From: Bacteroidales bacterium | GTDB taxonomy: Bacteria > Bacteroidota > Bacteroidia > Bacteroidales > UBA932 | Assembly: GCA_017469425.1 (NCBI GenBank) | Contig: JAFUGJ010000101.1 | Coordinates: 1-64,000 of the forward strand | Length of the DNA stretch: 64,000 nt | Direction of reading: 5' to 3' | Part shown: positions 18,807-63,645 of the stretch, piece by piece | How the letters are laid out: every line of letters begins with the position of its first letter | How positions within the stretch are numbered: position 1 is the first letter of the stretch | Program-made: the position numbers and the translations under genes | Notes under the pieces: generated by a model | Database searches by the model: none | Seen by the model: only the letters and a program-made list of their open reading frames with translations | What the model was told of the DNA's origin: nothing

Positions 18807-18847
18807 AAGAACTATCGCTCATTTTGGGCGATAGTTCTTCGTTAAAT
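18807..18847 (+). repeat. Hairpin repeat, copy A (may also terminate gpmA)
   Basis: Perfect 12-bp arms (18807-18818 and 18828-18839) around a 9-nt loop, followed by CGTTAAAT. The same 41 nt recurs with one mismatch at 25007-25047 in the same orientation, and the hairpin core recurs inverted inside the long repeats at 60816 and 63491. It lies 17 nt after gpmA, so it may act as its terminator, though the T run is weak. Confidence 0.85.
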
Positions 18848-18887
18848 GGTTGAAATATACTCACTTGCCTATTCCATATGTGGAACC

Positions 18888-18966
18888 CCTTCTCCATCTT
18901 TTCCCGCCAGGAGTAGTCAACGGCCATGTGCGGAGCGAGAGGTGGCAGGGGATAGGAAAGTCCGTA
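18888..18966 (-). pseudogene. Possible remnant of a M64-type C-terminal tail
   Basis: The minus strand encodes LSYPLPPLAP...YSWREKMEKG, which echoes the tail of the M64 gene at 20215 (LSKPLPPLPAP...HGWREELQKG) in order and spacing. It lies within an 80-codon open frame (18805-19047) without other recognisable content. A fragment left by recombination between related surface genes is one reading; chance resemblance is the other. Confidence 0.3.
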
Positions 18967-19054
18967 CTTGCCTTGATACCTGCTAATTGCTTGTCGCAGC
19001 ATTACCTTTACTTCACAGGTGATGCTAATACCTCGAAGAACAATCATCGATGTA

Positions 19055-20065
19055 TTAGTTCTTTTTCAAGGATTTCGTCTCTTTTTGCAAAGAATCGAGA
19101 TATGCTTTTTCTACAGGCGTTAACTCCCGGACTTGATACTTCCGGTATTCTGCGATGGCTTTTTCCCGGGCCTGTTGGTTGGATACACTGCCGGAACCGT
19201 CAAGGACCTTGGCACCGTTTGCTGACAGGATATTATCCAGCAAAACCCTGTAATCGTGCATAGTCATGGGTTTTCTCATCAAAGCCTGGTTCTCGGCGAA
19301 GTCGAAATAACCGGATACAAGGTTGTTGAGATACCGGAGTTCTGTCTCGCTCAAGTAGTTCTTGGCAACAGTGACATCGGCAAGCGTAGGATGCGAACCT
19401 TTGAAGGAAGTAAGCCCCATAAACTCCTTGTCAGAATCGGCCCGATTGTAAATTAGTTCGGCTGCCGTCTGCCCATGTGTTGCAAAATGAAATTTGTTCT
19501 GGACAATCTTGAAAAAGAGCCTGGTTTCCTCATCCGAAGCGTCATAGTCGATGCTGGTCGCATATAAATCCAGAACCTGACGATACAGAACTTTTTCGCT
19601 GGAGCGGATGTCCTTGATGGTATTAAGCAGGTCATACCAGTACTGACCGCCTCCGTTCCCTTTCAGCCGGTTTACATCCAGCGTCCATCCTTTGACGATG
19701 TATTCACGCAAGCGCTTCGTGGCCCACTGCCGGAAACGGGTTCCAGCGATGGAGTGAACCCTGTAACCGACGGATATGATTACATCAAGATTGTATAGAA
19801 GAACTTCTTGATTCTGCATTTTGCCTGCAATAGCACCATGAGGAGTGGTTGTTCGGAATTTCCGAACAACCACTGATTTCTCCAGCTCTCCCTCTTTGAA
19901 AATATTGGAAATATGTTCGCTGATTGTGGATTTAGCTTTGTTGAATAATAGACATAGCTGCTCTTGAGTCAGCCATACGGTTTCATTCTCTAAACGCACA
20001 TCCAGATGTACATTTCCATCCTCGGACTGGTAAAGGATTATTTCCCCTTTATCTTTTCCCTCCAT
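19055..20065 (-). CDS. RhuM family protein
   Basis: A 336-residue protein of the virulence RhuM family. The N-terminus (QSEDGNVHLDVRLENETVWLT, then a helix-turn-helix-like LCLLFNKAKSTISEHISNIF) and the conserved YNLDVIISVGYRV and GTRFRQWAT motifs are typical. The family is common on islands and mobile elements in many phyla; its function is unknown, and a DNA-binding or defence-related role is only suggested by the N-terminal motif. ATG at 20065 is chosen because the frame's upstream option is TTG (20077). It has its own promoter and lies in the segment bounded by hairpin copies A and B. Confidence 0.88.
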   Translation of the reverse strand: MEGKDKGEIILYQSEDGNVHLDVRLENETVWLTQEQLCLLFNKAKSTISEHISNIFKEGELEKSVVVRKFRTTTPHGAIAGKMQNQEVLLYNLDVIISVGYRVHSIAGTRFRQWATKRLREYIVKGWTLDVNRLKGNGGGQYWYDLLNTIKDIRSSEKVLYRQVLDLYATSIDYDASDEETRLFFKIVQNKFHFATHGQTAAELIYNRADSDKEFMGLTSFKGSHPTLADVTVAKNYLSETELRYLNNLVSGYFDFAENQALMRKPMTMHDYRVLLDNILSANGAKVLDGSGSVSNQQAREKAIAEYRKYQVRELTPVEKAYLDSLQKETKSLKKN

Positions 20066-20109
20066 AGCGATAAGCAATAGGGCGCTTGGTTCTCACCCTG
20101 ATTGACATC

Positions 20110-20140
20110 CAAAGATAATCACAAGAAAATGCAAATCCAA
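20110..20140 (-). promoter_or_regulatory. Promoter of the RhuM-family gene
   Basis: On the minus strand TTG (complement of 20138-20140), 20 nt spacer, TATCTTTG (complement of 20110-20117), about 45 nt before the ATG at 20065. Confidence 0.55.
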
Positions 20141-20170
20141 GTGATTGCAGCTTCGTAATCACTTGGATTT
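20133..20170 (-). terminator. Inverted repeat after the M64 gene, probable terminator
   Basis: Perfect 14-bp arms (20133-20146 and 20157-20170) with a 10-nt loop. Read on the minus strand it follows the M64 stop by about 45 nt and is followed by GCATTTTC. It overlaps the -33 region of the RhuM promoter. Confidence 0.65.
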
Positions 20171-20189
20171 GTTGATAGTTTTACTTCGC

Positions 20190-20217
20190 TGTCATTCTGA
20201 GCGAAGCGAAGAATCTA
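20190..20217. repeat. Widespread dispersed repeat TGTCATTCTGAGCGAAGCGAAGAATC
   Basis: Matches a short imperfect palindrome (CTGAGCGAAGCGAAG core) that recurs in intergenic DNA of many unrelated bacterial genomes. The stop codon of the M64 gene (complement of 20215-20217) lies at its edge, so the repeat may have set the present end of that gene. Confidence 0.6.
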
Positions 20218-23200
20218 TTTCCCCTTCTGCAGCTCTTCTCTCCAACCGTGACCTACCACAACCGGGGCCGGGAGCGGCGGCAGCGGTTTGGAGAGACGCG
20301 CCTTCGCAGCCTGAGTTTTGCGGCGCTGGATGGCGGCAGGAGTGCGGTTCACTGCATCGTAGGCCACGAAGTCTTCGTAACTGCCTTCCCATGATTCGCC
20401 GTAGGCCAGCTTTCCGATTCGGTACCAGATGGCGTATCGGCTGGGGGCGTTGAATCCGCCGGTATTGGTGTTCATGATACTGTTCACAGTTGGACGCCAA
20501 ACGCCAGTCCAATAAGTGAGACCGCCTTCGTAGCAACCAAGACCTTCGCCTGAATAACGAGGGTCACCAAGGAACTGCGACCATTTCACCTGAGCCGGGT
20601 CGCTCGTAAAGTCAACATTCTTCCACCAGCCGTAAGCCTCATTGACTTTGGTGTTGGCAATGGCATCCGCCGAAATTGCTCCATTATACTCGTATGCATA
20701 CTCATCAGCCAGTTTGGAGAAGCCGTGACCGCCAGCCTCGTGGGATACGAGTCCGTTGAAAATATCGGTATCGCTGTTTGTGGGGAAATAGGCAATGGAA
20801 AGTCCGCTACCATAGTTGCCCGATGATGGATAATACATGTAGCAGGTACCGGCGTAGGCGTTTTCATTCATCATGACGATGATGACAGCATCGTCCAGTC
20901 TGTCTTCGCTGATGGCTTTCTTGGCATATTCAATGACCTTTGAGTCGTCTCCATAGATGTATGTGCCATCACCATGAGCAGTGGAAAGTGCTTGGCCACT
21001 ATGTTCATAGCCTTCGGTGGCCGATACGACATTCACTGTATAGACATTGAAGCGGTCTTTCATTGACTTGTAAGGCTCCTCTGAGAAGAACGCATCAGCA
21101 GCTTTCTGCATTATGTTGGCGTATGTGCCGTCTGCTATCTGCCGGTCAGAGAAGCCATCTCCCATCAAAACGAGGTCTATGCCAGTGCCAATGGTTGACT
21201 GTTGGAGGGTTGATGTTGCGCCGTCTGAGGAATAGTCTGAGGACTGATACCAATCAACAACGATATTTTCTGCAAGAAACTGAGACAGATCTAGCGTACT
21301 TATAAGATTTGACCAAACAACCTTTGAATTACTATCTACGACTGTAATTGCGGGGGAGCCTGTATACCACAGTGGATAACTGACTATTTCGTAATCAGGG
21401 TCAACGCTTTTATAAAAATAGTTTCCTTCTTGGGAATAACAAAAATTTATCCAGGGAGTTTCGGATGCACGAATCTCATCAACACTATCGCCTGTCCATG
21501 CAATCATTCCCACTCCCTTATCCTTATACTCATTAAACAAATGAATCATTGTTTTGGTCATATCAGTATTTTCCCCTGGACGCCACTGCATCAAAATAGT
21601 GTACTGATTAGCCGTATAGATATCCTTCGCAACTATCTGTTCACCATCAATATCAGTGGTAATAAATACAGGTGCATTGAAAGTAATTTCATTCAAGTCA
21701 AATTGATTCCCTGGAAGAATCTCTCCCCATTGATACATAAACCAGGGGGAAGACTTTACCGATTCTGGGATTATGCCTGAAAGATGATTCCCGGATAAAG
21801 TTAAATCGTGTAGTCTATTTAAATATGAAAAAGACTCAGGGATAGTACCGATAAGGTTATTACCCCTAAGATCTAAAGTCTCGAGTTGATTCAGAGTACC
21901 GAGCGATTCGGGAATAACGCCAGTCAAGCCGCATGAACCAAATAATAGTCGCTGTAACTGTTGTAATTCTGAAATCCATGAAGGAATTTGTAATCCATCC
22001 ATCCGTGTCAGTGAAAAGTCCAATGTCCTAAGATTCTTTAATTCGCGAATTTGCTCAGGCATTTCATTTAATACACCCATATGGTATTCCAAGTATTTCA
22101 AGTTGGGAATAGAACATATTCCTATCGGGAAAGATTTAAAAACAATTGAAATACTAGACAAGTTAGTAAGGGGAGTAAAAGTCGGTTTTACATCTTCCAA
22201 ATCAGCTCCGCCTATAAACAAATAGTACAATTTGCTTAGTTTATCTATTTCTTGCGGGATTACTTTAGTTCGATGACCGCAAAGTGTAAGTTCCATTAGG
22301 TTTTTCAAATTGCCTATTTCCGATGGAAATGATGTGATATTATCATCTTCAAGCCGTAAGGCTTTCAGATTTACCAATTCACCTAATGAGGCTGGCACAT
22401 CACCTCTCATGCCGATATACTGTAGGGAAAGATTGCCAACATTTCCGTTCTCATCTGTATGAACCCCATACCATTCTCCAACCGGCTTATCCGAACACCA
22501 GTTCTCATTATTTGTCCAATTGTCACCATCCAAAGCATTATAAATAGCTATCAGTGCTTCACGCTCAAGTGCAAGCTGATAATCATGATTGGGTCCTTGT
22601 TCGATTAAGTATGGAAGGATAATCGCTCCGTCTTCACTTTTGATAACCACCGTGGCGCTCCTTTTAGTGCCGGTATTCGATTGAACAATCAGTCCTATCG
22701 TCTGTTTCTCCATCGCCTTGGTCTCCGGAGCAACGCTAATCCAACTCTGAGCATCTTCAGGGATGACGATGTGGCAAGGAACATTGGCGAAGAACTCCAG
22801 CGTGACCTCGCCGCCTTCGTTGGAGACTTCCTTGGTAGTATTCTCCTCAACCTCAATAGCTTCCGCCTCAAAATTCAGCGTGCGCATAATGGCCTGGCTG
22901 CCATTAGAAACAAGCACCACAACCTTGCTGTATTCATCAATTGTCGCGCCTGTCTTAACCTGAAGCGCCCCCGTCTTGGCATCGGTCTTTACGACCTTCA
23001 CCTTGATATCGACCGAACTCAATGCCTCAATAGTGATGTCGTCAATGCCGGAGGTAATAGTATAATGAATATTGCGGGTAGCGTTGGTGCCCATCACCAC
23101 AAGGTCTGCCGAATCAAACTCTATGCTCAGCGCAGCAGCACGACGAATGACAAAAGTCTGGCCGTCGCTTGTAACAAATGTCACTTCCGTTTCGGTCACA

Positions 23201-24681
23201 TTCACGCTCTGGAACATACTGTCGCCGTCTTTGCCGTCAATTCCGTCTTTCCCATCTCTTCCATCCTGACCATTCTCGCCTGTAGCTTTGCCCAACTGGG
23301 TCCAGGTAGTACCGTTGTCTGTGGAAACATACCAGTAGCCGTCTTCAATCTTCAATTGAGGCGTGATGCCGTCTTTACCGTCCTGCCCATTCTGGCCATT
23401 CTCTCCGTCCTTGCCGGGGACACCGTCTTCCCCGTCCTGACCATCCTTTCCGTCTTGGCCGTTTGCTCCGTTCTTACCATCAGTTCCTACGGCTTTGACC
23501 TTCTGGCCGTTGCTGTCAAGAAGCCACTGCCCGTCAAGGGTCCAGTACCAGATGCCGTCGGTATCCTGCTTCACTCCAATCACCGGCGTGTGACCGTCCT
23601 GACCATTTGTCCCATCCTTGCCATCGGCCCCATCTTTTCCTTGATAGATAGTTACAGAACCACTCTTTGTGAAGTTGATGATGTACCCAACCTCCTTGCC
23701 GTCCTCTATAATGGGAAGAATTGCCGTGATATAGTCATTGTTCTGCAGAGCGTAAACAATAGTCTGCAACGCTTCAATGTTGGAATTCATCTGATTCACA
23801 AGGGTCCTGAGCTGTTCAAAAGCATACCAGGTAGGGATTGTGAGAACAGTTCCATCCATTAAAGTGAACACAATGTAATCACTGTTAGAGGTATCTATGC
23901 TAGTAAACATTGAATCTCCAGTTAGGCCGATTGCTCCGTCCTTGCCATCAACACCGTCCTTACCATCCTTGCCGTCTTCGCCTGTGGCTTTGCCCAGTTG
24001 GGTCCAGGTGGCACCGTTGTCTGTGGAAACATACCAGTAGCCGTCCTCAATCTTTAACTGAGGGGTGATGCCATCTTTCCCGTCTTGTCCATTCTGACCG
24101 TTCTCTCCGTCCTTGCCGGGGGCGCCGTCTTTACCATCCTGACCATCCTTTCCGTCTTGGCCGTTTGCTCCGTTCTTACCATCAGTTCCTACGGCTTTGA
24201 CCTTCTGGCCGTTGCTGTCAAGCAGCCACTGCCCGTCAAGGGTCCAGTACCAGATGCCGTCGGTATCCTGCTTCACTCCAATCACCGGCGTGTGACCGTC
24301 CTGACCATTCGTCCCGTCCTTGCCATCTCTGCCATTGGTGCCGTCCTTTCCGTCAGCACCGTCTTTGCCATCGGCCCCATCCTGACCATGATAGATGGTG
24401 ATGGGATTGCCCTTGGCGAAGGTGATGGTGTAGCCGACGGTCTTGCCACCCTCGGTAATGGGGTTGACCGAAGTGATGTAGTCGCCGGTCTGCAATGCAG
24501 AGACGATGCCCTGCAGGGAGGAGATGTTGCTGTTCATCTCGCCGCAGAGTTTCTCCAACGCCGATACGCGCTTTTCAAGGTCGTTCAAGCGCTCGTTGAC
24601 ATCCATGATTTCCTGCTGGCAGGAAGCGAGGGCAAGCATCGTGAGGAATGCTGCCAGAATAATTTTGATGCGTGTTATCAT
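20215..24681 (-). CDS. Giant surface lipoprotein: DUF4988, Gly-X-Y repeats, BACON, LRR, M64 peptidase
   Basis: Lipoprotein of 1488 residues; lipobox ALASC with Cys21. Order: DUF4988-like coiled coil (22-95), Gly-X-Y collagen-like stretches with embedded YWTLDGQW and GYWYVSTDNG modules (98-258), a second copy of the whole unit (285-487), a linker, a BACON-like domain (about 610-697), leucine-rich repeats (about 700-985), a possible thioredoxin-like domain without paired cysteines (about 1003-1135), and a M64 (IgA-peptidase-like) domain with zinc motif HEAGGH (1314-1319) followed by GFSKLADEY. The proenzyme order suggests a long stalk presenting the protease. The LRR part is markedly more AT-rich than both ends, so the gene looks assembled from parts. 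It has its own promoter and a structured leader. Confidence 0.9.
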   Translation of the reverse strand: MITRIKIILAAFLTMLALASCQQEIMDVNERLNDLEKRVSALEKLCGEMNSNISSLQGIVSALQTGDYITSVNPITEGGKTVGYTITFAKGNPITIYHGQDGADGKDGADGKDGTNGRDGKDGTNGQDGHTPVIGVKQDTDGIWYWTLDGQWLLDSNGQKVKAVGTDGKNGANGQDGKDGQDGKDGAPGKDGENGQNGQDGKDGITPQLKIEDGYWYVSTDNGATWTQLGKATGEDGKDGKDGVDGKDGAIGLTGDSMFTSIDTSNSDYIVFTLMDGTVLTIPTWYAFEQLRTLVNQMNSNIEALQTIVYALQNNDYITAILPIIEDGKEVGYIINFTKSGSVTIYQGKDGADGKDGTNGQDGHTPVIGVKQDTDGIWYWTLDGQWLLDSNGQKVKAVGTDGKNGANGQDGKDGQDGEDGVPGKDGENGQNGQDGKDGITPQLKIEDGYWYVSTDNGTTWTQLGKATGENGQDGRDGKDGIDGKDGDSMFQSVNVTETEVTFVTSDGQTFVIRRAAALSIEFDSADLVVMGTNATRNIHYTITSGIDDITIEALSSVDIKVKVVKTDAKTGALQVKTGATIDEYSKVVVLVSNGSQAIMRTLNFEAEAIEVEENTTKEVSNEGGEVTLEFFANVPCHIVIPEDAQSWISVAPETKAMEKQTIGLIVQSNTGTKRSATVVIKSEDGAIILPYLIEQGPNHDYQLALEREALIAIYNALDGDNWTNNENWCSDKPVGEWYGVHTDENGNVGNLSLQYIGMRGDVPASLGELVNLKALRLEDDNITSFPSEIGNLKNLMELTLCGHRTKVIPQEIDKLSKLYYLFIGGADLEDVKPTFTPLTNLSSISIVFKSFPIGICSIPNLKYLEYHMGVLNEMPEQIRELKNLRTLDFSLTRMDGLQIPSWISELQQLQRLLFGSCGLTGVIPESLGTLNQLETLDLRGNNLIGTIPESFSYLNRLHDLTLSGNHLSGIIPESVKSSPWFMYQWGEILPGNQFDLNEITFNAPVFITTDIDGEQIVAKDIYTANQYTILMQWRPGENTDMTKTMIHLFNEYKDKGVGMIAWTGDSVDEIRASETPWINFCYSQEGNYFYKSVDPDYEIVSYPLWYTGSPAITVVDSNSKVVWSNLISTLDLSQFLAENIVVDWYQSSDYSSDGATSTLQQSTIGTGIDLVLMGDGFSDRQIADGTYANIMQKAADAFFSEEPYKSMKDRFNVYTVNVVSATEGYEHSGQALSTAHGDGTYIYGDDSKVIEYAKKAISEDRLDDAVIIVMMNENAYAGTCYMYYPSSGNYGSGLSIAYFPTNSDTDIFNGLVSHEAGGHGFSKLADEYAYEYNGAISADAIANTKVNEAYGWWKNVDFTSDPAQVKWSQFLGDPRYSGEGLGCYEGGLTYWTGVWRPTVNSIMNTNTGGFNAPSRYAIWYRIGKLAYGESWEGSYEDFVAYDAVNRTPAAIQRRKTQAAKARLSKPLPPLPAPVVVGHGWREELQKGK
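23279..24309 (-). repeat. Internal long repeat in the M64 gene, period 700 bp
   Basis: The stretch 23279-23609 recurs nearly identically at 23979-24309. It encodes the ATG(E)-GYWYVSTDNG-Gly-X-Y-YWTLDGQWLLDSNGQ block. High similarity at synonymous sites points to recent duplication or gene conversion and predicts copy-number variation between strains. Confidence 0.88.
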
Positions 24682-24715
24682 ATTTTGTGAGTTCTTGTTT
24701 CCTCCTATACATAAA

Positions 24716-24790
24716 GTGTGAGCCTCTCGGGTCTTATCCTAGCGAGGGCTCTGGAAAGCCTGTAAAGAGAATAAGGGAATCAGCTCACAC
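24716..24790 (-). ncRNA. Candidate structured 5' leader of the M64 gene
   Basis: An 8-bp closing stem, GTGTGAGC (24716-24723) with GCTCACAC (24783-24790), encloses 59 nt that can fold further (a CCTCG...CGAGAGG arm and a GGCT...AGCC arm on the minus strand). It sits in a leader of about 240 nt between the promoter at 24930-24960 and the ATG at 24681. No known riboswitch class was recognised. Confidence 0.45.
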
Positions 24791-24929
24791 CGCTATATGG
24801 AGGGAAAACCCACAATACAGCCAATGCAAGCGTCTCACTATATCCCGTCTTTACAATGAATTATCCAGATTCTCGCTACGGAACAAGCTTAACGCTCAAA
24901 TATGTACGCGCACCTTGCGGTGAGCATGG

Positions 24930-24960
24930 CAAAATTAACCAAAGTTTTGCAGATATACAA
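24930..24960 (-). promoter_or_regulatory. Promoter of the M64 surface protein gene
   Basis: Minus strand TTG (complement of 24958-24960), 20 nt spacer, TAATTTTG (complement of 24930-24937). It implies a leader of about 240 nt; apart from the candidate fold at 24716-24790, nothing else is seen in 24682-25006. Confidence 0.5.
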
Positions 24961-25006
24961 TAATAGCAGGCGCATCCGTTATAGCTTGTATATCAGGTGT
25001 TTACTA

Positions 25007-25047
25007 AAGAACTATCGCTCATTTCGGGCGATAGTTCTTCGTTAAAT
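25007..25047 (+). repeat. Hairpin repeat, copy B
   Basis: Same 41-nt element as 18807-18847 with one loop mismatch: 12-bp arms 25007-25018 and 25028-25039, then CGTTAAAT. It lies upstream of the M64 gene promoter and closes the accessory segment opened by copy A. Confidence 0.85.
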
Positions 25048-25133
25048 TATTGATATTTAGCTATTTGAGTTTTCCGAGCGCTCTCAGATGACGCACAATC
25101 CTGGCATTTCACCGACGGAGGATTGTCCGTATT

Positions 25134-26006
25134 TTAAAGATGTGTGGTAAGCAATTTAAGCGTATTTCCGTCGGGGATGAAACTCACCTCGCTCTCTCCC
25201 ATTATGAGAAGGGCTTCGCCTGCGGCAATGGCAACCGGGTCGGAACCGTAAACCTGCACATGCCCGGAGCCTTCCAGTCCCATTACAACCAGGAAGTTCT
25301 TGCCGGTAAGCCCGAAAAGATCCTTGGTGAAGGGCTTGCTTAGTTCATACACGGATGTTACGAAGTAGGGGCACTCCACAACCTGCATTTCGGCATCGGG
25401 AACCCTTTCGTAAGCGGTCTTATAGGAAGGATGGACTTTGTAGTCGATGACATCCTTGGCGAGTTCGGTATGGAGCTGGCGGGGTTTCCCGTCGAGCCCG
25501 GGGCGGTTGTAGTCGAAGATGCGGTAAGTGATGTCGGATGTCTCCTGAATCTCTGCGATGTAGCATCCTCCGCAGATGGCATGAACCCTTCCTGCAGGCA
25601 GGTAGAACACATCTCCTTTTTGGGTAGGATGATTCGCCAGCACCTCGGTAATCCTTCCTTCTGCAACCAGCCGTACATATTCTTCGGGCGTAATCTCCCT
25701 GCTCATCCCTGAATACAGATGCGCTCCGGGTGCGGCATCAATCATATACCACATTTCCGTCTTGCCACGGCAGCCGTGACGCTCCCGTGCAACATCATCG
25801 TTCGGGTGCACCTGAATGCTCAGGTCCTGCCTGGCATCTATGAATTTTATGAGCAGCGGAAACTCCTCCCCATACAGTTCATTCAGGGTTTTCCCGTCGG
25901 CAGGGCCTCCCGTTACTTTCGTTTCATTTCCCTTCACCCCCGACAGCACCCAGTTCTCGGTGCCCCATACCAGGGTCTTCAGTATCGGTTGAAATCTATA
26001 TATCAT
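25134..26006 (-). CDS. manA: Class I mannose-6-phosphate isomerase
   Basis: Interconverts mannose 6-phosphate and fructose 6-phosphate, linking mannose use and GDP-mannose supply. The 290-residue length and sequence fit the short type I isomerase (cupin). Zinc ligands are visible in QVHPND, KTEMWY and the later GRVHAI motif; the conserved FDYNRPG segment with arginine near the active site is also present. It is preceded by a 93-nt gap with an inverted repeat and no clear promoter. An inverted repeat with ACAATCCT/AGGATTGT arms lies just downstream. Confidence 0.93.
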   Translation of the reverse strand: MIYRFQPILKTLVWGTENWVLSGVKGNETKVTGGPADGKTLNELYGEEFPLLIKFIDARQDLSIQVHPNDDVARERHGCRGKTEMWYMIDAAPGAHLYSGMSREITPEEYVRLVAEGRITEVLANHPTQKGDVFYLPAGRVHAICGGCYIAEIQETSDITYRIFDYNRPGLDGKPRQLHTELAKDVIDYKVHPSYKTAYERVPDAEMQVVECPYFVTSVYELSKPFTKDLFGLTGKNFLVVMGLEGSGHVQVYGSDPVAIAAGEALLIMGESEVSFIPDGNTLKLLTTHL

Positions 26007-26040
26007 TGCAGCACTTAACTAATTTATTTTCAGTATCTTA

Positions 26041-26081
26041 CCGGACAACAAATCGGTAAAATCCGCCGATTTGTTCCCCGG
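26041..26081. repeat. Inverted repeat between the holin-like gene and manA
   Basis: AACAAATCGG (26047-26056) and CCGATTTGTT (26066-26075) form a perfect 10-bp stem, with CCGG/CCGG (26041-26044, 26078-26081) able to extend it. No T run follows on either strand, so termination is uncertain. Confidence 0.55.
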
Positions 26082-26099
26082 CAAATATTTGATATTCAA

Positions 26100-26534
26100 T
26101 CATTTGCGTGCTGCAAGTTTTAGGAAGATACGGAGTACTTGCAGCCCGAGGCGGCCAAGAGCGGACGAATCGCCGTTTTCGGCGTCCTGGAGACGGACGG
26201 CGTTGAGTTCTTCGCTGCGCACGAGTTCTTTGTAGCCCGGCTTGTCGCTAAGGATGCGCACGAAGGTGCCGCGGAACATGCTCCCCCGGCAGAGGAAAAG
26301 CACCAGGAGGATAAGCAGCAGGGCTCCGGCCACAATGAGGGCGCCCAGGGCGTAGTTGCCGAGGGCCTGTCCGATGAAGAGGATGCCAGCAAATGCGAGT
26401 GCGCTCAGGGCGAGTATGCCGATGGCGATTATCAGAATCCAGGCAACCAGGATGCCGAGGGCCTTTGAGCCGCTGTCGGCGCCTTTCAGTTTCAGTTGCT
26501 CAATGCGCAGGTCGATGTAGTCTTTGGTGCTCAT
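26100..26534 (-). CDS. Holin-X-like (putative phage holin family) membrane protein
   Basis: A 144-residue inner-membrane protein with two long hydrophobic segments (about 25-50 and 56-83) and a charged, helical C-terminus. It resembles the 'phage holin family / holin superfamily III' proteins that are encoded on ordinary chromosomes next to YtxH-like genes. No phage genes are nearby, so lysis is unlikely; an envelope-stress role is usual speculation. Its ATG overlaps the stop of the YtxH gene (26531-26534), so the two are translationally coupled. Confidence 0.75.
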   Translation of the reverse strand: MSTKDYIDLRIEQLKLKGADSGSKALGILVAWILIIAIGILALSALAFAGILFIGQALGNYALGALIVAGALLLILLVLFLCRGSMFRGTFVRILSDKPGYKELVRSEELNAVRLQDAENGDSSALGRLGLQVLRIFLKLAARK

Positions 26535-26791
26535 ACGGCTGCGTCCCGGGGTTGCTCTGGCGATTCTTCCCTGTCGATGGCGTTCTCAAGTGCATCCAGA
26601 CCTTTGGAAACTGCATCCATTGCGCTGTCGGCAAATTCGCCAGCCTTGTTCTTGACTTTTTCACCAAGGTCGTCCATGGTCTGCCGGATGCGTTCTTTGT
26701 CTTCCTTGCCTTTGTCGGAAAGCAGATATGCCGCTCCGATTGCACCGAGTGCGAGACCGGCCATGAATCCGAAAAATGAGTTGTTTGCCAT
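26531..26791 (-). CDS. YtxH domain protein
   Basis: An 86-residue protein with an N-terminal glycine-rich membrane segment (GFMAGLALGAIGAAYLLS, about 8-25) and an amphipathic helical tail rich in Lys, Asp and Glu, the pattern of YtxH/general-stress proteins. It starts 3 nt after the rnr stop and overlaps the holin-like gene by 4 nt, making a rnr-ytxH-holin transcript. Function is unknown; related genes respond to envelope or salt stress in other bacteria. Confidence 0.8.
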   Translation of the reverse strand: MANNSFFGFMAGLALGAIGAAYLLSDKGKEDKERIRQTMDDLGEKVKNKAGEFADSAMDAVSKGLDALENAIDREESPEQPRDAAV

Positions 26792-26794
26792 ATC

Positions 26795-55815: not shown

Positions 55816-55818
55816 CTT

Positions 55819-56367: not shown

Positions 56368-56403
56368 AATCAGCCTCGGAGCAATCCGAGGCTGATTTCT
56401 TTT
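56367..56403. terminator. Bidirectional terminator between lspA and the beta-barrel gene
   Basis: 14-bp perfect stem (56367-56380 with 56385-56398) and a 4-nt loop, flanked by A run on the left and T-rich sequence on the right. It serves the two convergent operons. Confidence 0.9.
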
Positions 56404-56416
56404 CAATACGCCGGTT

Positions 56417-56983: not shown

Positions 56984-56997
56984 GTTATATATACTGA

Positions 56998-59199
56998 TTA
57001 TTCTGCATTTTCAGATATGGTTTCTTCAACTGTTTCCGCTGCATCGACTGCGGCTTCCACTGCTTCGGCGGCCTGCTGTTTGGCAGCCTTGCATGCCTGG
57101 TACTTCGTGTATCCGAGGTAACCGCATCCTGCCAGAAGGAGCACGACTATCGTCCAGACAAGGCAGCGCTTGCGCACCACCTTCTTGCGCTCTGCAGGGT
57201 CAACCGCAGTAAGCTTGGGATATTTTACGAGAGTGGTAAGCGTCTTTCCGAACTTCGTGTTCACATACGCGGCGGCATTGATGGCCCAGCCGTTGGCATT
57301 GAGCACGGGGCCGAGGTCGCGCTTGCGGAGTTTGCGCCAGGTGATGAATACGGAAGGCAGGGAAATTACCAGCATAACGGCGATGATTACGAGAACCACT
57401 TTGACGAATCCGAGGTTCGCGGCTCCTTTCGCAAGCGATACGAGCGCCTGTCCGATGAATCCGAGAGCCATGCCTATTGCGGCGAAGATGCCTGCGAACT
57501 TGGCGATGTCGAAGGTACTCTGCACGGTTGCGGCGGCTCCTTCCTTGCTTGAGGTAGCGCTGTCGGCCGAAGCGGTGAGATTCGCCATCGAAGCGTCGTT
57601 CTTTTCCGCTGCGGACTTGTCAATCTTGTCGGAAATCCATTTGCCTACCTTCTTATACGGAGCCCAGAAAGCCTGGCGGAGGCTGATGGGATTGTCGATG
57701 ATGCCGGTGACGGTTGCGTCGTACTGCTCTCCTGCGCGGTCGTAGAAGATTGCGTTCTTTCCGACGCGAAGTCCGTCCACATCACCGTCGGTAAGCACGG
57801 CTGCAATGGGGAAACTCTTGCCGCTGACTTTGCTCACGCAGTTGCAATACAGGATATACATTCCGCTCAGGGCCGAAATATCTCCCTGCTTTCCGGCATC
57901 CAGGACCTTGACGCACAGGTCAGTGCTTCTCTGGTCGATGTAGAGCCGTCCTGCCTGGAAGATGGCTTTGGTGTCGGGATTTTTGTCGTAGAAGTCTTCA
58001 AGCACGACATAGTTCTTGAGGAAAGTGTAGAAGTCGCGCACATAGTGCAGGAGCTTGTCTACGGCCTCGATGCTGAGGGCTTCTTCCTCAAGGGCCTTGT
58101 CCTCAGCGATGAGTCCGAGCAGTATTGCCTTGCAGTCGGCCTTGAGCGCTGCATTGACCGCTTCGATGCCGAGGGGTTCGACTTCGGCGCCCTTCTTTGC
58201 GGCTTTCCAAGCATTGTAGCTGTCGAACTTCGCAAGGGTTTCCTGCCATTCAGCCTCGCTGATTTCTTCCTTATCGGGGAAAACCAGGCTTTTCAGCGCT
58301 GCGACTGCGCCCTGCCATGCGGGGTTGATGCCGTTTCCGAGGGGAAGTTTTCCGTCTTTTACGGGACGGGCGAGGGGATAGGTCGCAATTTCTCCCGTGG
58401 CTGCGGAAAGGTCGCCACCGCTGATGGCTCCGACCTTGTCCACCGACACATCCACGACTCCGGCAACGCTTTCGTCGAAGCTGATGAGTTTGCAGCGCAT
58501 GAAGAAATCGGCAACTTTATCTTTTACGGCCTCGCATGCGGCAAGGGCTGCTTCTGTGTTGTCGCCGAAAGGTCCTTTGTCTTCGGCGGCCTTCCATGCG
58601 CTGTAATCTGCGAGGGCTGTGTAGAAGGCTTCAATCTGGTCGGTATTCACGCCATCCGCGCCGCTGCGGTCCTTGCTGGAGCCGATGGTGGCGATGATGT
58701 TCTTGATGGTCTCTTTGATTTGCCCGTCATCAGTGCTGGCTTCGGTGATGATGCCGTCGCCGTTGAAGCGGGTTTCGGCAAATATTTTCTCGTTGTCGGA
58801 AGTTTCGGCAAGGGAGATGCCGTCCTTCTCGATGCCGAGGTTTGAAAGAATCTGGCGGGCGGATTTTTCGAGCCTTGCGCCTTCTTCGCTCTTCTTGTTG
58901 AAGTCGCTGAATTTCAGGCTGTCGCCGCCTTTGATAAGGATTTCGGGGGTCTTCAGCACCGAGGTGAGCCACTGCGAAGCTGCAATGACTTCATCGACAT
59001 GGATGCGTCCGTCGCCGTCGGCATCCAGGAGGGAAAGGGTCTTGGCATCGAACTCCAAGCCTGTGGTGGGGCAGCTGAGCACCGTCCACTTCTTGCGGTC
59101 GAGTTCGTGCAGGTGTGCGATGTCTTCACCGCTTTCAATCTTCACGCGGACGGACCCGCCCACGGAAGCGTATTTCCAGTTGTAGCTTTCTTTGGACAT
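56998..59199 (-). CDS. Large EF-hand-containing membrane protein, function unknown
   Basis: 733 residues without signal peptide. A perfect 12-residue EF-hand loop lies at D59-E70 (DADGDGRIHVDE); a second, degenerate one (FNGDGIITE) near 145-155. The central 160-520 region is helical and lacks recognised motifs. Three hydrophobic segments lie near 587-610, 622-645 and 690-712, so the C-terminal third anchors it in the inner membrane with an Ala/Glu/Val-rich tail. Calcium or other divalent-cation sensing is suggested only by the EF-hand. It is between an EEP lipoprotein and a beta-barrel protein in one operon. Confidence 0.75.
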   Translation of the reverse strand: MSKESYNWKYASVGGSVRVKIESGEDIAHLHELDRKKWTVLSCPTTGLEFDAKTLSLLDADGDGRIHVDEVIAASQWLTSVLKTPEILIKGGDSLKFSDFNKKSEEGARLEKSARQILSNLGIEKDGISLAETSDNEKIFAETRFNGDGIITEASTDDGQIKETIKNIIATIGSSKDRSGADGVNTDQIEAFYTALADYSAWKAAEDKGPFGDNTEAALAACEAVKDKVADFFMRCKLISFDESVAGVVDVSVDKVGAISGGDLSAATGEIATYPLARPVKDGKLPLGNGINPAWQGAVAALKSLVFPDKEEISEAEWQETLAKFDSYNAWKAAKKGAEVEPLGIEAVNAALKADCKAILLGLIAEDKALEEEALSIEAVDKLLHYVRDFYTFLKNYVVLEDFYDKNPDTKAIFQAGRLYIDQRSTDLCVKVLDAGKQGDISALSGMYILYCNCVSKVSGKSFPIAAVLTDGDVDGLRVGKNAIFYDRAGEQYDATVTGIIDNPISLRQAFWAPYKKVGKWISDKIDKSAAEKNDASMANLTASADSATSSKEGAAATVQSTFDIAKFAGIFAAIGMALGFIGQALVSLAKGAANLGFVKVVLVIIAVMLVISLPSVFITWRKLRKRDLGPVLNANGWAINAAAYVNTKFGKTLTTLVKYPKLTAVDPAERKKVVRKRCLVWTIVVLLLAGCGYLGYTKYQACKAAKQQAAEAVEAAVDAAETVEETISENAE

Positions 59200-59211
59200 A
59201 TCGTTGTTTGT

Positions 59212-60060
59212 TTAGAATACGAGGATTGCCGCCACGGGGTAGTGGTCGGAAATGTAGGGGATGTTTTCGTAGGTCTTGCGAATGCATTCGAACAGCGGGG
59301 TGGCGCTGAATCCGGATTCGTAGATGTAGTCGATGGCGGTGTCGCGGTCGGTCGTGCCCCATCCGTTGTAGGTTACGAGGCTGTCGGTGACGGGAGCGAT
59401 GTCACGCACGGATTCCATGCGCCCGACGAGGCTCTGCAGGCAGGGGTCGCCAAGCTCGACATTGAAGTCGCCTGTGAGAATCATGGGGTATCCTTCGGGA
59501 TTTATGTCGTCGATGCGGTCAACGATGAGGCTGAGCCCCTTGGCACGGGCAACAGGTCCGATGTGGTCCAGATGCGTATTTACATAGTAGTAATTCTTGT
59601 TGTAGCGCTTGTCTTTGAGAAGGGCCCAGGTTGCGGTGCGGAAGCACGCGGCGTCCCATCCCCTGGAAGGAACCTCCGGGGTCTCGGACAGCCAGAAATT
59701 GCCCCATTTTACAAGTTCCTGCGTCTTGGTGTTCCAGAAGATGGCCATCACTTCGCCCTTGGTGTCGCCGTCGTCGCGGTGTACGCCTACATATTTGTAA
59801 TCGGGGCAGGTTTCGGTGAGATAGTCAAGTTGCATCTGCAACGCTTCCTGCAGGCCGAAAATGTCCGGCTGCTGGTCTGCAATCATTGCGGGCGACGCGC
59901 TCTTTCGCTTGTCCCAGTGATTGTCGCCGTCGTGGGCGGTACCTACGCGGATGTTGTAGGATATTACCTTTAGGGTCTGTTGTTTTTCTTTTTTGCAGCC
60001 GCTGAGGCTTGCGGGGAGAATGACGGCAATGCCGAGAAGGATGATGAATATTCGTTTCAT
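59212..60060 (-). CDS. Endonuclease/exonuclease/phosphatase family lipoprotein
   Basis: 282-residue EEP protein; lipobox LSGC, Cys22, so likely membrane-anchored outside the cytoplasm. Family elements: SYNIRVG (Asn ligand), FGLQEAL (Glu), NTHLDHIG (His), LTGDFNVELGDP (Asp/Asn), and SDHYPV at the C-terminus (catalytic pair). Related proteins hydrolyse nucleic acid, phosphoinositides or sphingomyelin; nothing here selects among them. First gene of a three-gene minus-strand operon with its own promoter at 60086-60116. Confidence 0.88.
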   Translation of the reverse strand: MKRIFIILLGIAVILPASLSGCKKEKQQTLKVISYNIRVGTAHDGDNHWDKRKSASPAMIADQQPDIFGLQEALQMQLDYLTETCPDYKYVGVHRDDGDTKGEVMAIFWNTKTQELVKWGNFWLSETPEVPSRGWDAACFRTATWALLKDKRYNKNYYYVNTHLDHIGPVARAKGLSLIVDRIDDINPEGYPMILTGDFNVELGDPCLQSLVGRMESVRDIAPVTDSLVTYNGWGTTDRDTAIDYIYESGFSATPLFECIRKTYENIPYISDHYPVAAILVF

Positions 60061-60085
60061 CTTGCTGAATGGATTTAGATTTACA

Positions 60086-60116
60086 CAAAAGTAACTTTTT
60101 TATTCCATTTGTCAAA
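60086..60116 (-). promoter_or_regulatory. Promoter of the EEP/EF-hand/beta-barrel operon
   Basis: Minus strand TTTG (complement of 60113-60116), 19 nt spacer, TACTTTTG (complement of 60086-60093), 25 nt before the ATG at 60060. The -33 abuts that of the divergent tRNA-Ser promoter. Confidence 0.7.
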
Positions 60117-60139
60117 ATAAATAAAAATCCATAACTTTG
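60108..60139 (+). promoter_or_regulatory. Promoter of tRNA-Ser
   Basis: TTTG (60108-60111), 20 nt spacer, TAACTTTG (60132-60139), about 65 nt upstream of the tRNA 5' end. Confidence 0.7.
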
Positions 60140-60208
60140 CGTTCCCTTTCGGACTGGAGTTCCGTCTGGGCACGCCTTGCAGCCGGAAGTGCTGCACCGC
60201 GTTAACAT

Positions 60209-60293
60209 GGAGGAATGGCCGAGTGGTCGATGGCGGCAGTCTTGAAAACTGTTGTGCGGCAACGCACCGGGGGTTCGAATCCCTCTTCCTCCG
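60209..60293 (+). tRNA. tRNA-Ser (anticodon UGA)
   Basis: 85 nt. Acceptor stem GGAGGAA (60209-60215) pairs with TTCCTCC (60286-60292), discriminator G60293. Anticodon loop CTTGAAA gives TGA at 60243-60245, and a long variable arm (GTGCGGCAACGCAC) is present as expected for serine. CCA is not encoded. Its 3' end is duplicated at 60469-60482. Confidence 0.96.
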
Positions 60294-60299
60294 CGCAAT

Positions 60300-60429
60300 G
60301 CAATCAGAATCAGGTGCCGCACATGAGTGCGGCATTTGTGTTTGCCGGTGCGCCCGTTGAAAGCTTGCTTTCATAAGGGTGTGCCGGCAAACACAAAGCA
60401 ACCTATGGTTGCACCTGCATACTGATTGC
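60300..60429. repeat. Nested palindrome downstream of tRNA-Ser
   Basis: Outer arms GCAATCAGAATCAGGTGC (60300-60317) and GCACCTGCATACTGATTGC (60411-60429) enclose a hairpin (60315-60322 with 60327-60334) and a longer one whose 14-bp arms are 60335-60348 and 60384-60397. The small hairpin with TTT may end the tRNA transcript; the whole could be a structured RNA or a miniature element. Confidence 0.65.
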
Positions 60430-60468
60430 TCCCGGACATCAGGGAAAAGGCACGGCGCGGCCGTGGCT

Positions 60469-60482
60469 AATCCCTCTTCCTC
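60469..60482 (+). repeat. Duplicated 3' end of tRNA-Ser, possible att remnant
   Basis: AATCCCTCTTCCTC repeats 60278-60291 of the tRNA exactly, 191 bp downstream. Short duplications of a tRNA 3' end are left by tyrosine-recombinase integration. No integrase gene is present in the window. Confidence 0.5.
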
Positions 60483-60815
60483 TTCGCTCAGGAAGAAGCT
60501 TGGTTTGCGTCAGGCTCTTTTTAGGGGCGCTGCCCCTGATGTATTCCGCGGATTCCGGCCTTCGTCCTTCGGACCGGCCTCCGCCGTTTGCGCTGGGGCT
60601 CTCAATGAATATTCTTCTGAACTATTGCTTGCCGACAGTGCGGGAAGGCCAAGGTGGCTGACACCTTCGGCCCTGGCGGGCCTTAAATAGGCTGAAATGT
60701 CTTCAAGCTGCCGGAGGCCTGTCAGTTGTTGGACCACCTCCGTAAAAATAGGCCGTTTTTGACGGACCCATGCCAGGTTGTTGGACCACCTCCGGCATCG
60801 AAGCCTTGTTTTGAT
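60483..60815. other. Gene-free stretch with GC-rich palindromes and an 18-bp repeat
   Basis: Contains short palindromes (AGGGGCGCTGCCCCT; the CCGGCCTTCG/CGGACCGGCC region) and the direct repeat GTTGTTGGACCACCTCCG at 60725-60742 and 60777-60794. No supported gene on either strand. Confidence 0.5.
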
Positions 60816-60968
60816 TTGAAAAGAATTAATCGGCGTCGAAATAATTGGGCAGCGATTTTGCTGCGCGATATTAAATAATTGATTATTAATAACTTCGCAA
60901 CTTACTATCGCTGGAAATGAGCGATAGTTTTTAAGTAATCGCCTGGCTATTAACGATTTAAGGACGCG
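60816..60968. repeat. Long direct repeat, copy C, containing the hairpin family
   Basis: About 90% identical to 63491-63645 in the same orientation. It includes a GCAGC/GCTGC hairpin and ACTATCGCT/AGCGATAGT (60904-60928), the inverted form of the 18807/25007 hairpin. Confidence 0.85.
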
Positions 60969-61190
60969 CGAGCAATATAGACTGAACTTTTCGTGTGCTT
61001 CTCTCCTATCGGGAAAGAGGCATGAGATGAAAGCAGATTCTTTGACACCGTAGGTTTTATTGTATAGTTTAACCACTAAGCATGGTGCATAGCTGCCTCT
61101 CCAAAAACGCAGTTTGGGGGAGAAGTTGTCACCCCTATGGAGAATAATTCTTATATTTATAGCTTGAAATAAGATACACAGAATAGAGCT
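60969..61190. other. Leader region before the zinc-ribbon-like gene
   Basis: 222 nt, AT-rich, no supported gene and no complete promoter. A TATATTTA near 61151-61158 is a near-match to the -7 element. Confidence 0.35.
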
Positions 61191-61772
61191 ATGGAAGATT
61201 CTTTGAAGGAACTGAATAATAGTGTTGACAAATATATTGCCGATGGTACATTTACCGAGGATGCCTTCAATAGGTATGCTCAGTCGTTTTGCTGGTACTG
61301 CGGAAATACCTATGTGGACGGAAAAGTTTACAAGGATGTCATCCACTTTTCTCGATATGAATCCAAAAGGGTGGGCGCGAAAAGAGTCTCAAGAACAGAA
61401 TACAAAACAATTGAGGTGCATCAATGTAGAAATTGCTGGCACATCCACGAAGATGAATCTTCTTGCATTGAAAGAGCGCAGTCAATTTTCAAAAAGGCAT
61501 ATTGGGGACTTGCAATAGCAGTTCCAATCATTCTATTCCTCTCCACTGAGCCTTGGGATAATTGGAATTGGGAAATTCTTGGAATATTAGCGTTCTGGGC
61601 TGTTCTTCTTTCCTTTGCCGCTTATTTTATTGTTCGGGCAATTGTAATGATGATTGTCTCTGAAAAAGTTCATAAAGAAGTCGTCAACAAATATCACCTC
61701 CGTAAAAGAGAAGATATCCCAGCTGTCAAAAAGGCACTTAAACACAAGTGGAAAATTGACAGATTTCTTTGA
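61191..61772 (+). CDS. Zinc-ribbon-like two-helix membrane protein
   Basis: 193 residues. The soluble N-terminal part carries two cysteine pairs, CWYC (about 34-37) and CRNC (about 79-82), suited to a four-cysteine zinc site. Two membrane helices follow (about 103-118 and 128-153), then a basic tail. It is not a family I recognise by name. Base composition is more AT-rich than the core genome, and it lies in the segment bounded by repeats C and D, next to an AAA ATPase. It has its own terminator, so the two genes are separate transcripts. Confidence 0.7.
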   Translation: MEDSLKELNNSVDKYIADGTFTEDAFNRYAQSFCWYCGNTYVDGKVYKDVIHFSRYESKRVGAKRVSRTEYKTIEVHQCRNCWHIHEDESSCIERAQSIFKKAYWGLAIAVPIILFLSTEPWDNWNWEILGILAFWAVLLSFAAYFIVRAIVMMIVSEKVHKEVVNKYHLRKREDIPAVKKALKHKWKIDRFL

Positions 61773-61777
61773 TTCAG

Positions 61778-61802
61778 CGCTCACTCCGGTGAGCGTTTTT
61801 TG
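61778..61802 (+). terminator. Terminator of the zinc-ribbon-like gene
   Basis: CGCTCAC (61778-61784) pairs with GTGAGCG (61789-61795), followed by seven T residues. Confidence 0.88.
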
Positions 61803-61865
61803 TTTTCCAGAGGAGGTGTTGGAACCAGCGCATTCTCCGCAATCTTCCTCTTAGGATTCACCTGC

Positions 61866-62072
61866 TTAAGAGCTCCGGTCTTGGTAGAGCGCCATCTCCC
61901 GGCAGCAGGCTACCAGCAGGTACAACTTCTTGGCCGTTTCCTTCAGGCCCCTTGCCTTGGGAAGAGCCGTCACCGGATTCACCGAGACAACGGCTCCATC
62001 CATCCGGCATGGCTGGTCGGTAGCCCGGAGGCGCTTGGCCTCGTTCGATATCTTCTTTCTGTCTTTTGTCAT
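61866..62072 (-). CDS. Small hypothetical or remnant protein
   Basis: 68-codon frame (MTKDRKKISNEAKRLRATDQ...) with a basic N-terminus and composition closer to real protein than to shadow sequence. It has no clear promoter and no recognised relatives. It may be the truncated start of a phage-type gene, since the region around it is GC-richer than its two neighbours. The rest of the 61803-62096 gap shows nothing else. Confidence 0.3.
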   Translation of the reverse strand: MTKDRKKISNEAKRLRATDQPCRMDGAVVSVNPVTALPKARGLKETAKKLYLLVACCREMALYQDRSS

Positions 62073-62096
62073 AAATCAAAGAATGTGTTTACATTT

Positions 62097-62128
62097 TTTG
62101 TAATTACAATTTTTGTTTTATACCTTTG
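62097..62128 (+). promoter_or_regulatory. Promoter of the AAA ATPase gene
   Basis: TTTG (62097-62100), 20 nt spacer, TACCTTTG (62121-62128), ATG 22 nt later. It supports the start at 62151 over the longer frame opening at 61800. Confidence 0.75.
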
Positions 62129-62150
62129 CGGTGGTAAATCACACATTAGG

Positions 62151-63284
62151 ATGGAAGCGCCTTTCATATTCGGCAAGATTGCCACAGACAAGAATTTTAC
62201 AGACAGAGAACAGGAAACGGCTCATCTGGTAAACAATTTCGAATCTCTCATCAACACAATCATCATTTCTCCAAGGCGTTGGGGAAAAAGTTCTCTCGTT
62301 CATAAGGCTGCAACCATTGCACAGTATGAAGATAAACAGCTCAAAATATGCACGGTTGACCTTTTTAATGTCAAGACAGAAGAACAATTCTACACTGTCT
62401 TTGCTCGCAGTGTCATTCGGGGAACTGCATCTCGGTGGAATGAGGCAGTTGAAAACGCGAAGAAGTTCTTCTCTCGTCTGGTTCCCAAAATATCCATCGG
62501 GGCCGACCCGATGAACGAGGTCTCCATTGACTTTGATTGGGAGGAAATGAAAAGGAACCCCGATGAGATTCTTGATCTTCCGGAACGGATCGCACAGTCG
62601 AAGGGGATAAAGGTTATGGTTTGTATTGATGAATTCCAGAACATCGCGGAATTTGACGACCCTCTTTTCTTCCAAAGGAAGTTGCGTGCTCACTGGCAAA
62701 AACACCAGAAAGTGAGCTATTGCCTTTATGGGAGTAAGCGTCACATGATGCTTGAGGTCTTCACGGACTCATCCATGCCATTTTATAAGTTCGGTGACCT
62801 TTTTTTTCTGAATAAGATTGATACAGATCATTTTGTTCCATTCATTATAGAGCGGTTCTCCTCCACAGGAAAAACTATCTCTGAAGGCGCTTGCAAGAAA
62901 ATCATTGCTCTCGCAGACAATCATCCATACTATGTCCAGCAGCTTTCTCAACTTTCTTGGCTCAGATCCTCCTCGCAGTGTACTGAAGAGATTGTAATAA
63001 AGGCTCATGAATCGCTCGTCGAACAGCTCAGTCTCCTTTTCTCCAACCTTATTGAAACCTTCACATTCCAACAGGTTTGTTACCTTCATGCCGTCATTGC
63101 AGGGGAAAAAGCTATAACGAGTTCCGAGACCATGCACCGATACCATATAAGCAGTGCCACGGCAGCATCGAGGTCTCTCAAGACATTGATTAAAAAAGAC
63201 ATTCTTGACAGCAAAGCTGGCATCGTTTCTTTTCAAGATCCCATCTTTGAATATTGGCTGAGACATCATTACTATCAGGTTTAG
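62151..63284 (+). CDS. AAA family ATPase (archaeal-type / AAA_14-like)
   Basis: 377-residue P-loop protein. Walker A is SPRRWGKSSLV (about 43-52), Walker B VMVCIDEFQN (about 162-171); a sensor-like GSKRH follows, and the C-terminal 120 residues form a winged-helix-like region (ISSATAASRSLKTLIKKDIL) ending in DPIFEYWLRH, the common tail of this ATPase group. Such proteins are scattered in accessory DNA and some act in defence or mobile-element functions; none is assigned here. AT-rich, own promoter, inside the segment bounded by repeats C and D. Confidence 0.85.
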   Translation: MEAPFIFGKIATDKNFTDREQETAHLVNNFESLINTIIISPRRWGKSSLVHKAATIAQYEDKQLKICTVDLFNVKTEEQFYTVFARSVIRGTASRWNEAVENAKKFFSRLVPKISIGADPMNEVSIDFDWEEMKRNPDEILDLPERIAQSKGIKVMVCIDEFQNIAEFDDPLFFQRKLRAHWQKHQKVSYCLYGSKRHMMLEVFTDSSMPFYKFGDLFFLNKIDTDHFVPFIIERFSSTGKTISEGACKKIIALADNHPYYVQQLSQLSWLRSSSQCTEEIVIKAHESLVEQLSLLFSNLIETFTFQQVCYLHAVIAGEKAITSSETMHRYHISSATAASRSLKTLIKKDILDSKAGIVSFQDPIFEYWLRHHYYQV

Positions 63285-63490
63285 CATATCCATATTCCAC
63301 AATTTTGCACGCGAGCGTTCTCGACTCAAGGGGCGGTTGACATTTGAGAGCCCGAAGGAAATCTGACTCCCTCCCCGTTGGAGTCAGTCGTATGCACAGA
63401 GTTGTCTTTTCGAGTGTTTTCTAAACTTTTATCAAAGAGTTACGCGGTTTCGGGCCGATTTTTCCGTAGTTAATTCGAGTGTGCATCTGT
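63285..63490. other. Gene-free stretch after the ATPase gene
   Basis: Holds one perfect hairpin, CTGACTCC (63363-63370) with GGAGTCAG (63380-63387), without a T run. Nothing else is recognised before repeat D. Confidence 0.45.
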
Positions 63491-63645
63491 TTGAAAAGAA
63501 TTAATCGGTGTCGAAATAATTGTGTGCGGCAATTTTGCTGCGCGATATTAAATAATTGATTATCAATAACTTCGCAACTCACTATCGTTGGAAATGAGCG
63601 ATAGTTTTTAAGTAATTGCCTGGCTATTAACGATTTAAGGATGCG
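63491..63645. repeat. Long direct repeat, copy D, containing the hairpin family
   Basis: Direct repeat of 60816-60968 with a 2-base length difference. In the hairpin, ACTATCGT replaces ACTATCGC, turning a C-G pair into T-G and keeping the stem; in the first hairpin GCGGC replaces GCAGC with pairing kept. Confidence 0.85.

Follow-up and report, generated by a model that had tools for sequence, protein, structure and literature searches.

A 64-kb stretch of DNA from a Bacteroidales bacterium (positions 1 to 64,000 of contig JAFUGJ010000101.1, assembly GCA_017469425.1; hereafter the window) contains two segments of accessory genes, each enclosed by a pair of hairpins that share one core, and raises the question of whether these hairpins delimit the segments or reached their positions by another route. 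An initial annotation, made from the window alone, had proposed that the hairpins mark a preferred insertion or recombination site, or the ends of a transferable unit that carries no recombinase of its own. Analysis of the genome assembly and of relatives indicates that the hairpins are dispersed palindromes of about 107 bp, likely recognized through their central stem and copied to intergenic sites by a predicted REP-associated tyrosine transposase (RAYT; REP, repetitive extragenic palindromic) encoded on another contig of the same genome (C73), and that the palindrome is not a boundary device of the accessory segments. We assign these two statements, taken jointly, a probability of roughly 0.84.

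Alignment of the copies found across the genome (2.53 Mb in 103 contigs, 94% complete, 6.3% contamination) revealed that the window hairpin is the center of an imperfect nested palindrome of about 107 bp (family 1), with a central ACTATCGC-N9-GCGATAGT stem, a TTGATTATCAA-like (TGATWATCA-like) box on each side about 32 nt from the center and GCGC-like ends. The whole element is palindromic; its strong hairpin is single and central, and the TGATWATCA boxes could form small hairpins. As initially annotated, the core occurs four times in the window: the 15-mer AACTATCGCTCATTT has exact matches in direct orientation at 18810 and 25010 and inverted at 60915-60929 and 63592-63606. The corresponding elements are copy 1 (18774-18876, plus strand, with ACTATCGC at 18811-18818 and GCGATAGT at 18828-18835), whose left arm overlaps the end of a phosphoglycerate mutase gene, copy 2 (24970-25076, plus strand), copy 3 (60863-60969, minus strand) and copy 4 (63540-63646, minus strand). 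No further exact core and no further family-1 place was found within the window, and to that extent the annotated absence of copies from core regions holds; elsewhere in the genome, the copies examined lie mostly between ordinary genes. A search with a model built from 24 copies, which match it by construction, located family 1 at 28 places after merging of strands (25 at 68 bits or more and three at 57-61 bits), 24 of them outside the window, and returned 18 further, weaker matches at 30-52 bits. The exact stem and gap were found 21 times, against about 0.002 occurrences expected by chance in 2.5 Mb. The most conserved part of the element is its center, not its ends, and the outer arms have probably decayed in older copies.

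Four of the weaker matches define a second palindrome family (family 2), with a like frame and a different stem, ACAAATCGG/CCGATTTGT, and with terminal repeats TGCAGCAC/GTGCTGCA or close variants. Family-2 elements reach 109 bp, the genome contains 12 exact occurrences of their stem, and one copy, with this stem and these terminal repeats, lies in the window at 26007-26115. Another lies 4 bp past the stop codon of a gene on contig C27 whose 294-aa product scores above the Y1_Tnp cut-off. A search with this protein identified a second, 51% identical RAYT of 305 aa on contig C73 (4203-5120, minus strand), flanked by family-1 elements at C73:4077-4183 and 5127-5233, with gaps of 19 and 6 bp. Among 42 aligned homologs, H43 and H45 (in NHTH) and Y103 are invariant; the RAYTs of this genome thus appear to carry the HUH motif, with Y103 the presumed catalytic tyrosine. 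The best structural match of the RAYT model was the solved complex of TnpA-REP with a REP hairpin, in keeping with a predicted TnpA-REP fold, and the C73 gene is predicted to encode a RAYT of the HUH/Y1 type. Each of the two RAYT genes is thus adjoined by its own palindrome family, and the four annotated hairpins belong to that of the C73 gene. The initial proposal of a transferable unit that carries no recombinase of its own fits the hairpin, which looks like a non-autonomous unit; that the gene blocks are the unit is not supported. A transposase gene with this palindrome on either side is present in the genome, on C73. On contig C89 (locus L072), a family-1 element (901-1007) and a family-2 element (1018-1126) stand side by side, 10 bp apart.

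The pairing of RAYT and palindrome extends to the genus, probably Cryptobacteroides to judge by a single source name at 33% identity (P0064), in which 152 of 250 genomes, this one included, encode RAYT homologs. Across 103 RAYT loci, a hairpin with a stem of at least 9 bp was found within 500 bp of the gene in 81, and on both sides in 39. A stem 7-mer was common to the two sides in 32 of these 39 loci, compared with 19 of 1468 combinations in which sides were swapped between genomes. A hairpin-free test gave a similar picture, with a 12-mer common to both 400-bp flanks in 47 of 88 loci against 95 of 2000 swapped pairs. Both tests were designed post hoc, and the stem counts contain noise, as some stems may be coding palindromes (e.g. 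AGTCCAGTT in L122 and L125). In cross-genome comparisons, the proportion of pairs with a common stem 7-mer fell from 20/45 at RAYT identities of at least 60% to 10/69 at 50-60%, 8/617 at 40-50% and 13/2478 below 40%, showing at the sequence level that stem similarity follows RAYT similarity across the genus. Furthermore, in the 68 elements of matched-stem loci (34 loci rather than 32, owing to a slightly different filter), a TGATWATCA box with up to two mismatches was present in 73 of 136 arms, usually about 32 nt from the center, compared with 9.7% of mononucleotide-shuffled arms.

Dispersed copies follow the same pairing. Of the 250 genomes of the genus, only this one, with 21 copies, and G123, with one, contain the exact family-1 stem, and the family-2 stem occurs in seven (G000, 12 copies; G069, 8; G198, 3; G192, 2; G145, 2; G115, 1; G195, 1). 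Among the matches listed, five genomes encode a RAYT that shares at least 55% identity with the C27 protein (partial in G145), and all five are among these seven; Fisher's exact test of this association gave 2.7e-9 with our genome and 9.6e-8 without it, values that serve only as a guide because the genomes share ancestry. The family-1 model detected elements in 6 of 61 genomes searched, counting this one, whereas the 24 genomes from other families of the order had none. Both elements read in G005 contain ATCCTCGGC, as do elements beside a RAYT gene on another contig, and in G008 an element shares AACCTTCGGA in the same manner. The matches compared in G019 and G009 are not independent, because in each case a RAYT gene is no more than about 0.7 kb away; the second match in G019, on contig C11, fell outside the comparison. 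Four Bacteroidales records of metagenome-assembled genomes also contain an element after a RAYT gene, three with the family-2 stem and one with GAGAATCGG; three of these four read like L111, L112 and L114 and may derive from the same genomes. A RAYT gene flanked by its own element family, with further copies dispersed, was accordingly found both in this genome and in the genus. In G005 (L228, contig C18), three same-stem elements follow one RAYT gene in a row, 132-134 bp apart, as in REP clusters.

Several observations weigh against this reading, in addition to the shared ancestry that tempers the Fisher test. The C73 protein had no Pfam match at 0.01, with 25 of its 42 relatives matching Y1_Tnp, and Foldseek searches with the RAYT model returned nothing at an E-value of 0.001 or better (best 0.22). 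None of the 24 copies inspected has a GT[AG]G motif in the 12-13 nt 5' of its stem, whichever strand is read. In 64 of the 103 RAYT loci, no stem was detected on one or both sides, and of 91 RAYT loci a strict nested-palindrome detector (stem and terminal repeat of at least 8 bp each) placed an element 5' of the gene in 19, 3' of it in 20 and at both flanks in only 8; in the window, this detector recovered a single element, the family-2 copy, and because it missed the degenerate-armed family-1 copies, those of C73 included, the looser flank tests were adopted. The dispersed stem of G006 adjoins none of the four RAYT loci examined there, a fifth match lying outside the comparison, and the lone family-1-stem element of G123, a different species (L141, C106:11351-11375), has no matching stem at either of the two RAYT genes of that genome, which have other stems. 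Movement was not seen among the relatives compared, which offered neither a comparable orthologous site with and without a copy nor a clean empty site. Finally, RNAalifold analysis found the family-1 stem invariant, with compensatory changes in none of its nine pairs. Absence of such changes within family 1 is nonetheless what would be expected if the RAYT reads a particular sequence. A reading of the element as a structured RNA was considered and rejected, being unsupported for want of compensatory change in the stem.

By analogy with REP/RAYT systems, a single strand of the element would fold and be recognized by the RAYT through the central stem. The folded strand would then be cut near the element ends, inserted elsewhere as folded single-stranded DNA and copied during replication or repair, and copies would settle in intergenic gaps where the neighboring genes tolerate them; the binding, cleavage, copying and movement ascribed here to the RAYT all follow from this analogy. 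At the scale of the genus, the RAYTs and their elements may form a diversifying lock-and-key system, in which every long-form RAYT would recognize its own central stem and terminal repeats, exchangeable parts within a constant frame of about 107-109 bp, with TGATWATCA boxes at about 32 nt, and in which pairs are re-coded species after species, sometimes with two per genome that ignore each other. We judge the odds on this broader proposal to be even.

The best placed of the alternatives holds that the hairpins are transcription terminators or stabilizers of mRNA 3' ends, useful to the host and multiplied by ordinary duplication, and that their association with RAYT genes is incidental. The genomic context of 24 of the 28 family-1 copies, based on simple open-frame calls (leaving out C56 together with C82:8587, C87 and C45:3486, whose stems were uninspected), is of the kind that terminators would occupy, with 13 copies between tandem genes, 8 between convergent genes and a single one between divergent genes; of the other two, one overlaps a small predicted frame and one lies at a contig end. 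The sole copy in a divergent gap is copy 3, if the nearby tRNA gene is not counted. The hairpins are strong, with folding z-scores of -4.65 and -5.67 for copies 1 and 2 and of -3.65 and -2.50 for the minus strands of the long repeats around copies 3 and 4 (-1.65 for the plus strand of the first), and copies 3 and 4 fit a terminator-like pattern on the plus strand, which also counts against the RAYT reading. Copies 1 and 2, however, do not fit this pattern, both RAYT genes are adjoined by their own family, RAYT genes elsewhere in the genus are flanked by stems that match each other, and the exact family-1 stem is present in only 2 of 250 genomes of the genus. We therefore consider this alternative unlikely; terminator activity may arise as a by-product. 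An Rfam scan of the window at E-values of 1 or better returned SAM-II, tRNA and four weak matches below the gathering score, and nothing at the hairpins.

A second alternative, close to the initial annotation, is that the hairpin pairs are borders or recombination sites that mobilize the accessory genes between them. Both window pairs do enclose such genes. Inside the first, the annotated RhuM protein and M64 protein (1488 aa, with collagen, LRR, DUF4988 and M64 domains) were both recovered; inside the second lie genes for a 193-aa protein, which had no match in Pfam, NCBIfam, PADLOC or PHROGs, and for the annotated ATPase, which is only ATPase_2-like and falls below the Pfam cut-off. The second pair, moreover, lies within longer repeats that bound these two genes and are direct to each other, as annotated: copy 3 inside 60815-60975 and copy 4 inside its partner 63490-63652 (161-163 bp, 92.6% identity over 163 columns). 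Each long repeat comprises its family-1 copy and about 48 bp of common flank on one side, for which the rest of the genome contains no substantial match. A tRNA-Ser gene lies at 60209-60294, 0.5 kb upstream of the first long repeat.

Outside the window, the family-1 copies examined mostly keep other company. In a scan of 20 proteins beside 11 selected copies, 12 belong to families that we classified as housekeeping (purB, GMP/PMI, glutamate racemase, triose-phosphate isomerase, RecJ, rRNA methyltransferase, malate dehydrogenase, peptide deformylase, UvrD/PcrA-like helicase, PheS, PNPase and QueF), five had no match, and the remaining three are a short-chain dehydrogenase, a MarR regulator and a thioredoxin-like protein. 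NCBIfam identified nine of these neighbors, of which only purB, glutamate racemase, triose-phosphate isomerase and RecJ reached the curated cut-off. With 21 of 24 copies in tandem or convergent gaps and 12 of 20 neighbors housekeeping, a preferred site at the ends of accessory segments is not borne out, and the copies examined, mostly between ordinary genes, largely show the distribution that the initial annotation itself had named as contrary to its proposal. Copies do cluster within 20 kb (10 against 3.3 expected, P = 0.0005, or 9 against 3.1, P = 0.002, without the pair flanking the C73 RAYT), but close pairs are weakly enriched: gaps of up to 7 kb, a threshold picked after seeing the gaps, number five against 1.7 expected (P = 0.02), or four against 1.6 (P = 0.07) with the RAYT pair counted as one copy, and gaps at 3 kb number three against 0.8 (P = 0.05), or two against 0.8 (P = 0.18) without that pair. 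These random placements, in which contig C56 was given an assumed length and all copy-free contigs were taken to be equally long, also yielded a 64-kb stretch with at least four of the 28 copies in 49% of cases. In the window itself, copy 2 and the family-2 copy enclose a manA-like gene just as neatly. Taken together, the random placements and the context of the copies make a link to accessory genes unnecessary to explain the pattern. The regional clustering is real, and the accessory segments probably stand beside copies because both settle in tolerant gaps.

Comparison with relatives, at pgm loci in six and at transporter loci in five, bears on the same alternative. In G009, a manA homolog directly follows pgm, with no RhuM gene, M64 gene or element between them, as an empty site would require; this is not a simple empty site, however, because manA and the next gene lie on the opposite strand relative to the window. 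The stretches available from G020 and G003 reach a contig edge within 2 kb past pgm. On the far side of segment 2, gene order is kept in five relatives, whereas the near side retains a gene in G021 alone, a homolog of 56998-59199 at 48% identity, and the other four relatives show no match to the genes there. G021 has a single 486-aa gene in place of 6.2 kb comprising an endonuclease-family gene, the tRNA-Ser gene, segment 2 and further frames, and no element with the family-1 stem was seen in this region; since the differing block also includes the tRNA-Ser gene and at least three other frames, the hairpins do not mark its ends. Beside the homolog of 56998-59199 in G021 (L250, contig C55, about 6800-6840), there is a perfect 19-bp stem with a 3-nt loop, distinct from the family-1 stem. 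Elsewhere, synteny stops before the pnp copy at C54:77791. Both segments thus lie in regions that differ between relatives, and the suspected link to variable genes stands in this respect; the differing blocks are not hairpin-bounded. Borders that mobilize the enclosed genes are, on this evidence, very improbable.

Least likely of all is a miniature inverted-repeat transposable element (MITE) or an element like the enterobacterial repetitive intergenic consensus (ERIC), moved by a DDE transposase acting on terminal repeats, which would account for the terminal inverted repeats (e.g. TGCAGCAC/GTGCTGCA in family 2) and the length of 107-109 bp, but not for a family 1 most conserved at its center, for the lack of target duplications evident by eye at four family-2 copies or for a gene beside the copies that is of Y1/HUH type.

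The accessory genes and their surroundings have features of their own. The RhuM protein (19055-20077, minus strand) matches PADLOC candidate defense models PDC-S05, with a best E-value of 8e-143. The 1488-aa protein (20215-24681, minus strand) is of surface type, with collagen repeats, five DUF4988 stretches, BACON, leucine-rich repeats and an M64 peptidase domain, and its gene holds a 300-bp internal repeat whose units are 87% alike. A SAM-II riboswitch is present at 940-1005 (minus strand), scoring 60.5 bits against an Rfam gathering score of 44.

The REP/REPIN-RAYT (TnpA-REP) systems of E. coli and Pseudomonas combine many-copy extragenic palindromes with an HUH transposase gene that lies close to the elements it matches; the transposase and its elements have co-evolved, and REPINs fold as hairpins (PMC3116915, PMC8266576). 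The dispersed palindromes described here resemble them in being multi-copy, extragenic and associated with an HUH transposase gene near its own elements. Judged against the same accounts, family 1 differs from canonical REPs in having no GT[AG]G foot, and appears to differ from REPINs, which are inverted REP pairs, in that TGATWATCA boxes and a single strong stem at the center make up a large nested palindrome; the transposases, at about 294-305 aa, also have a helical C-terminal part beyond the catalytic core. Among the descriptions consulted, the nearest published systems are the TIRtron/TIRYT class and the atypical structures of TnpA-Y1 subclass 2.6. In TIRtrons, a RAYT-like gene lies between long inverted repeats that have no relation to GTAG REPs; some of these repeats are partly or wholly self-complementary, and dispersed families are moderately abundant (PMC3733652), and we find the same combination of a RAYT-like gene, long non-GTAG inverted repeats and a dispersed family; the available text of that description contains no Bacteroidales example and no constant frame with exchangeable stems (PMC3733652). 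Subclass 2.6 genes, from the Bacteroidetes, are flanked by atypical secondary structures without GT[AG]G, with copies elsewhere in the genome, and in this resemble the genes studied here, but their median protein length is 179 aa (PMC6006769), compared with about 294-305 aa for the present RAYTs. A constant frame with exchangeable, enzyme-matched stems is absent from the accessible descriptions of these nearest systems, and none of the papers listed by literature searches outside subscription journals dealt with elements of this kind in Cryptobacteroides or with a stem code in Bacteroidales.

Within one genus, dozens of natural transposase-stem pairs provide material for deciphering how RAYTs select their elements, and a genome that holds two such pairs, each with its own stem, would permit a direct test of cross-activity. 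These results also illustrate that a scattered repeat can produce striking hairpin pairs around accessory genes.

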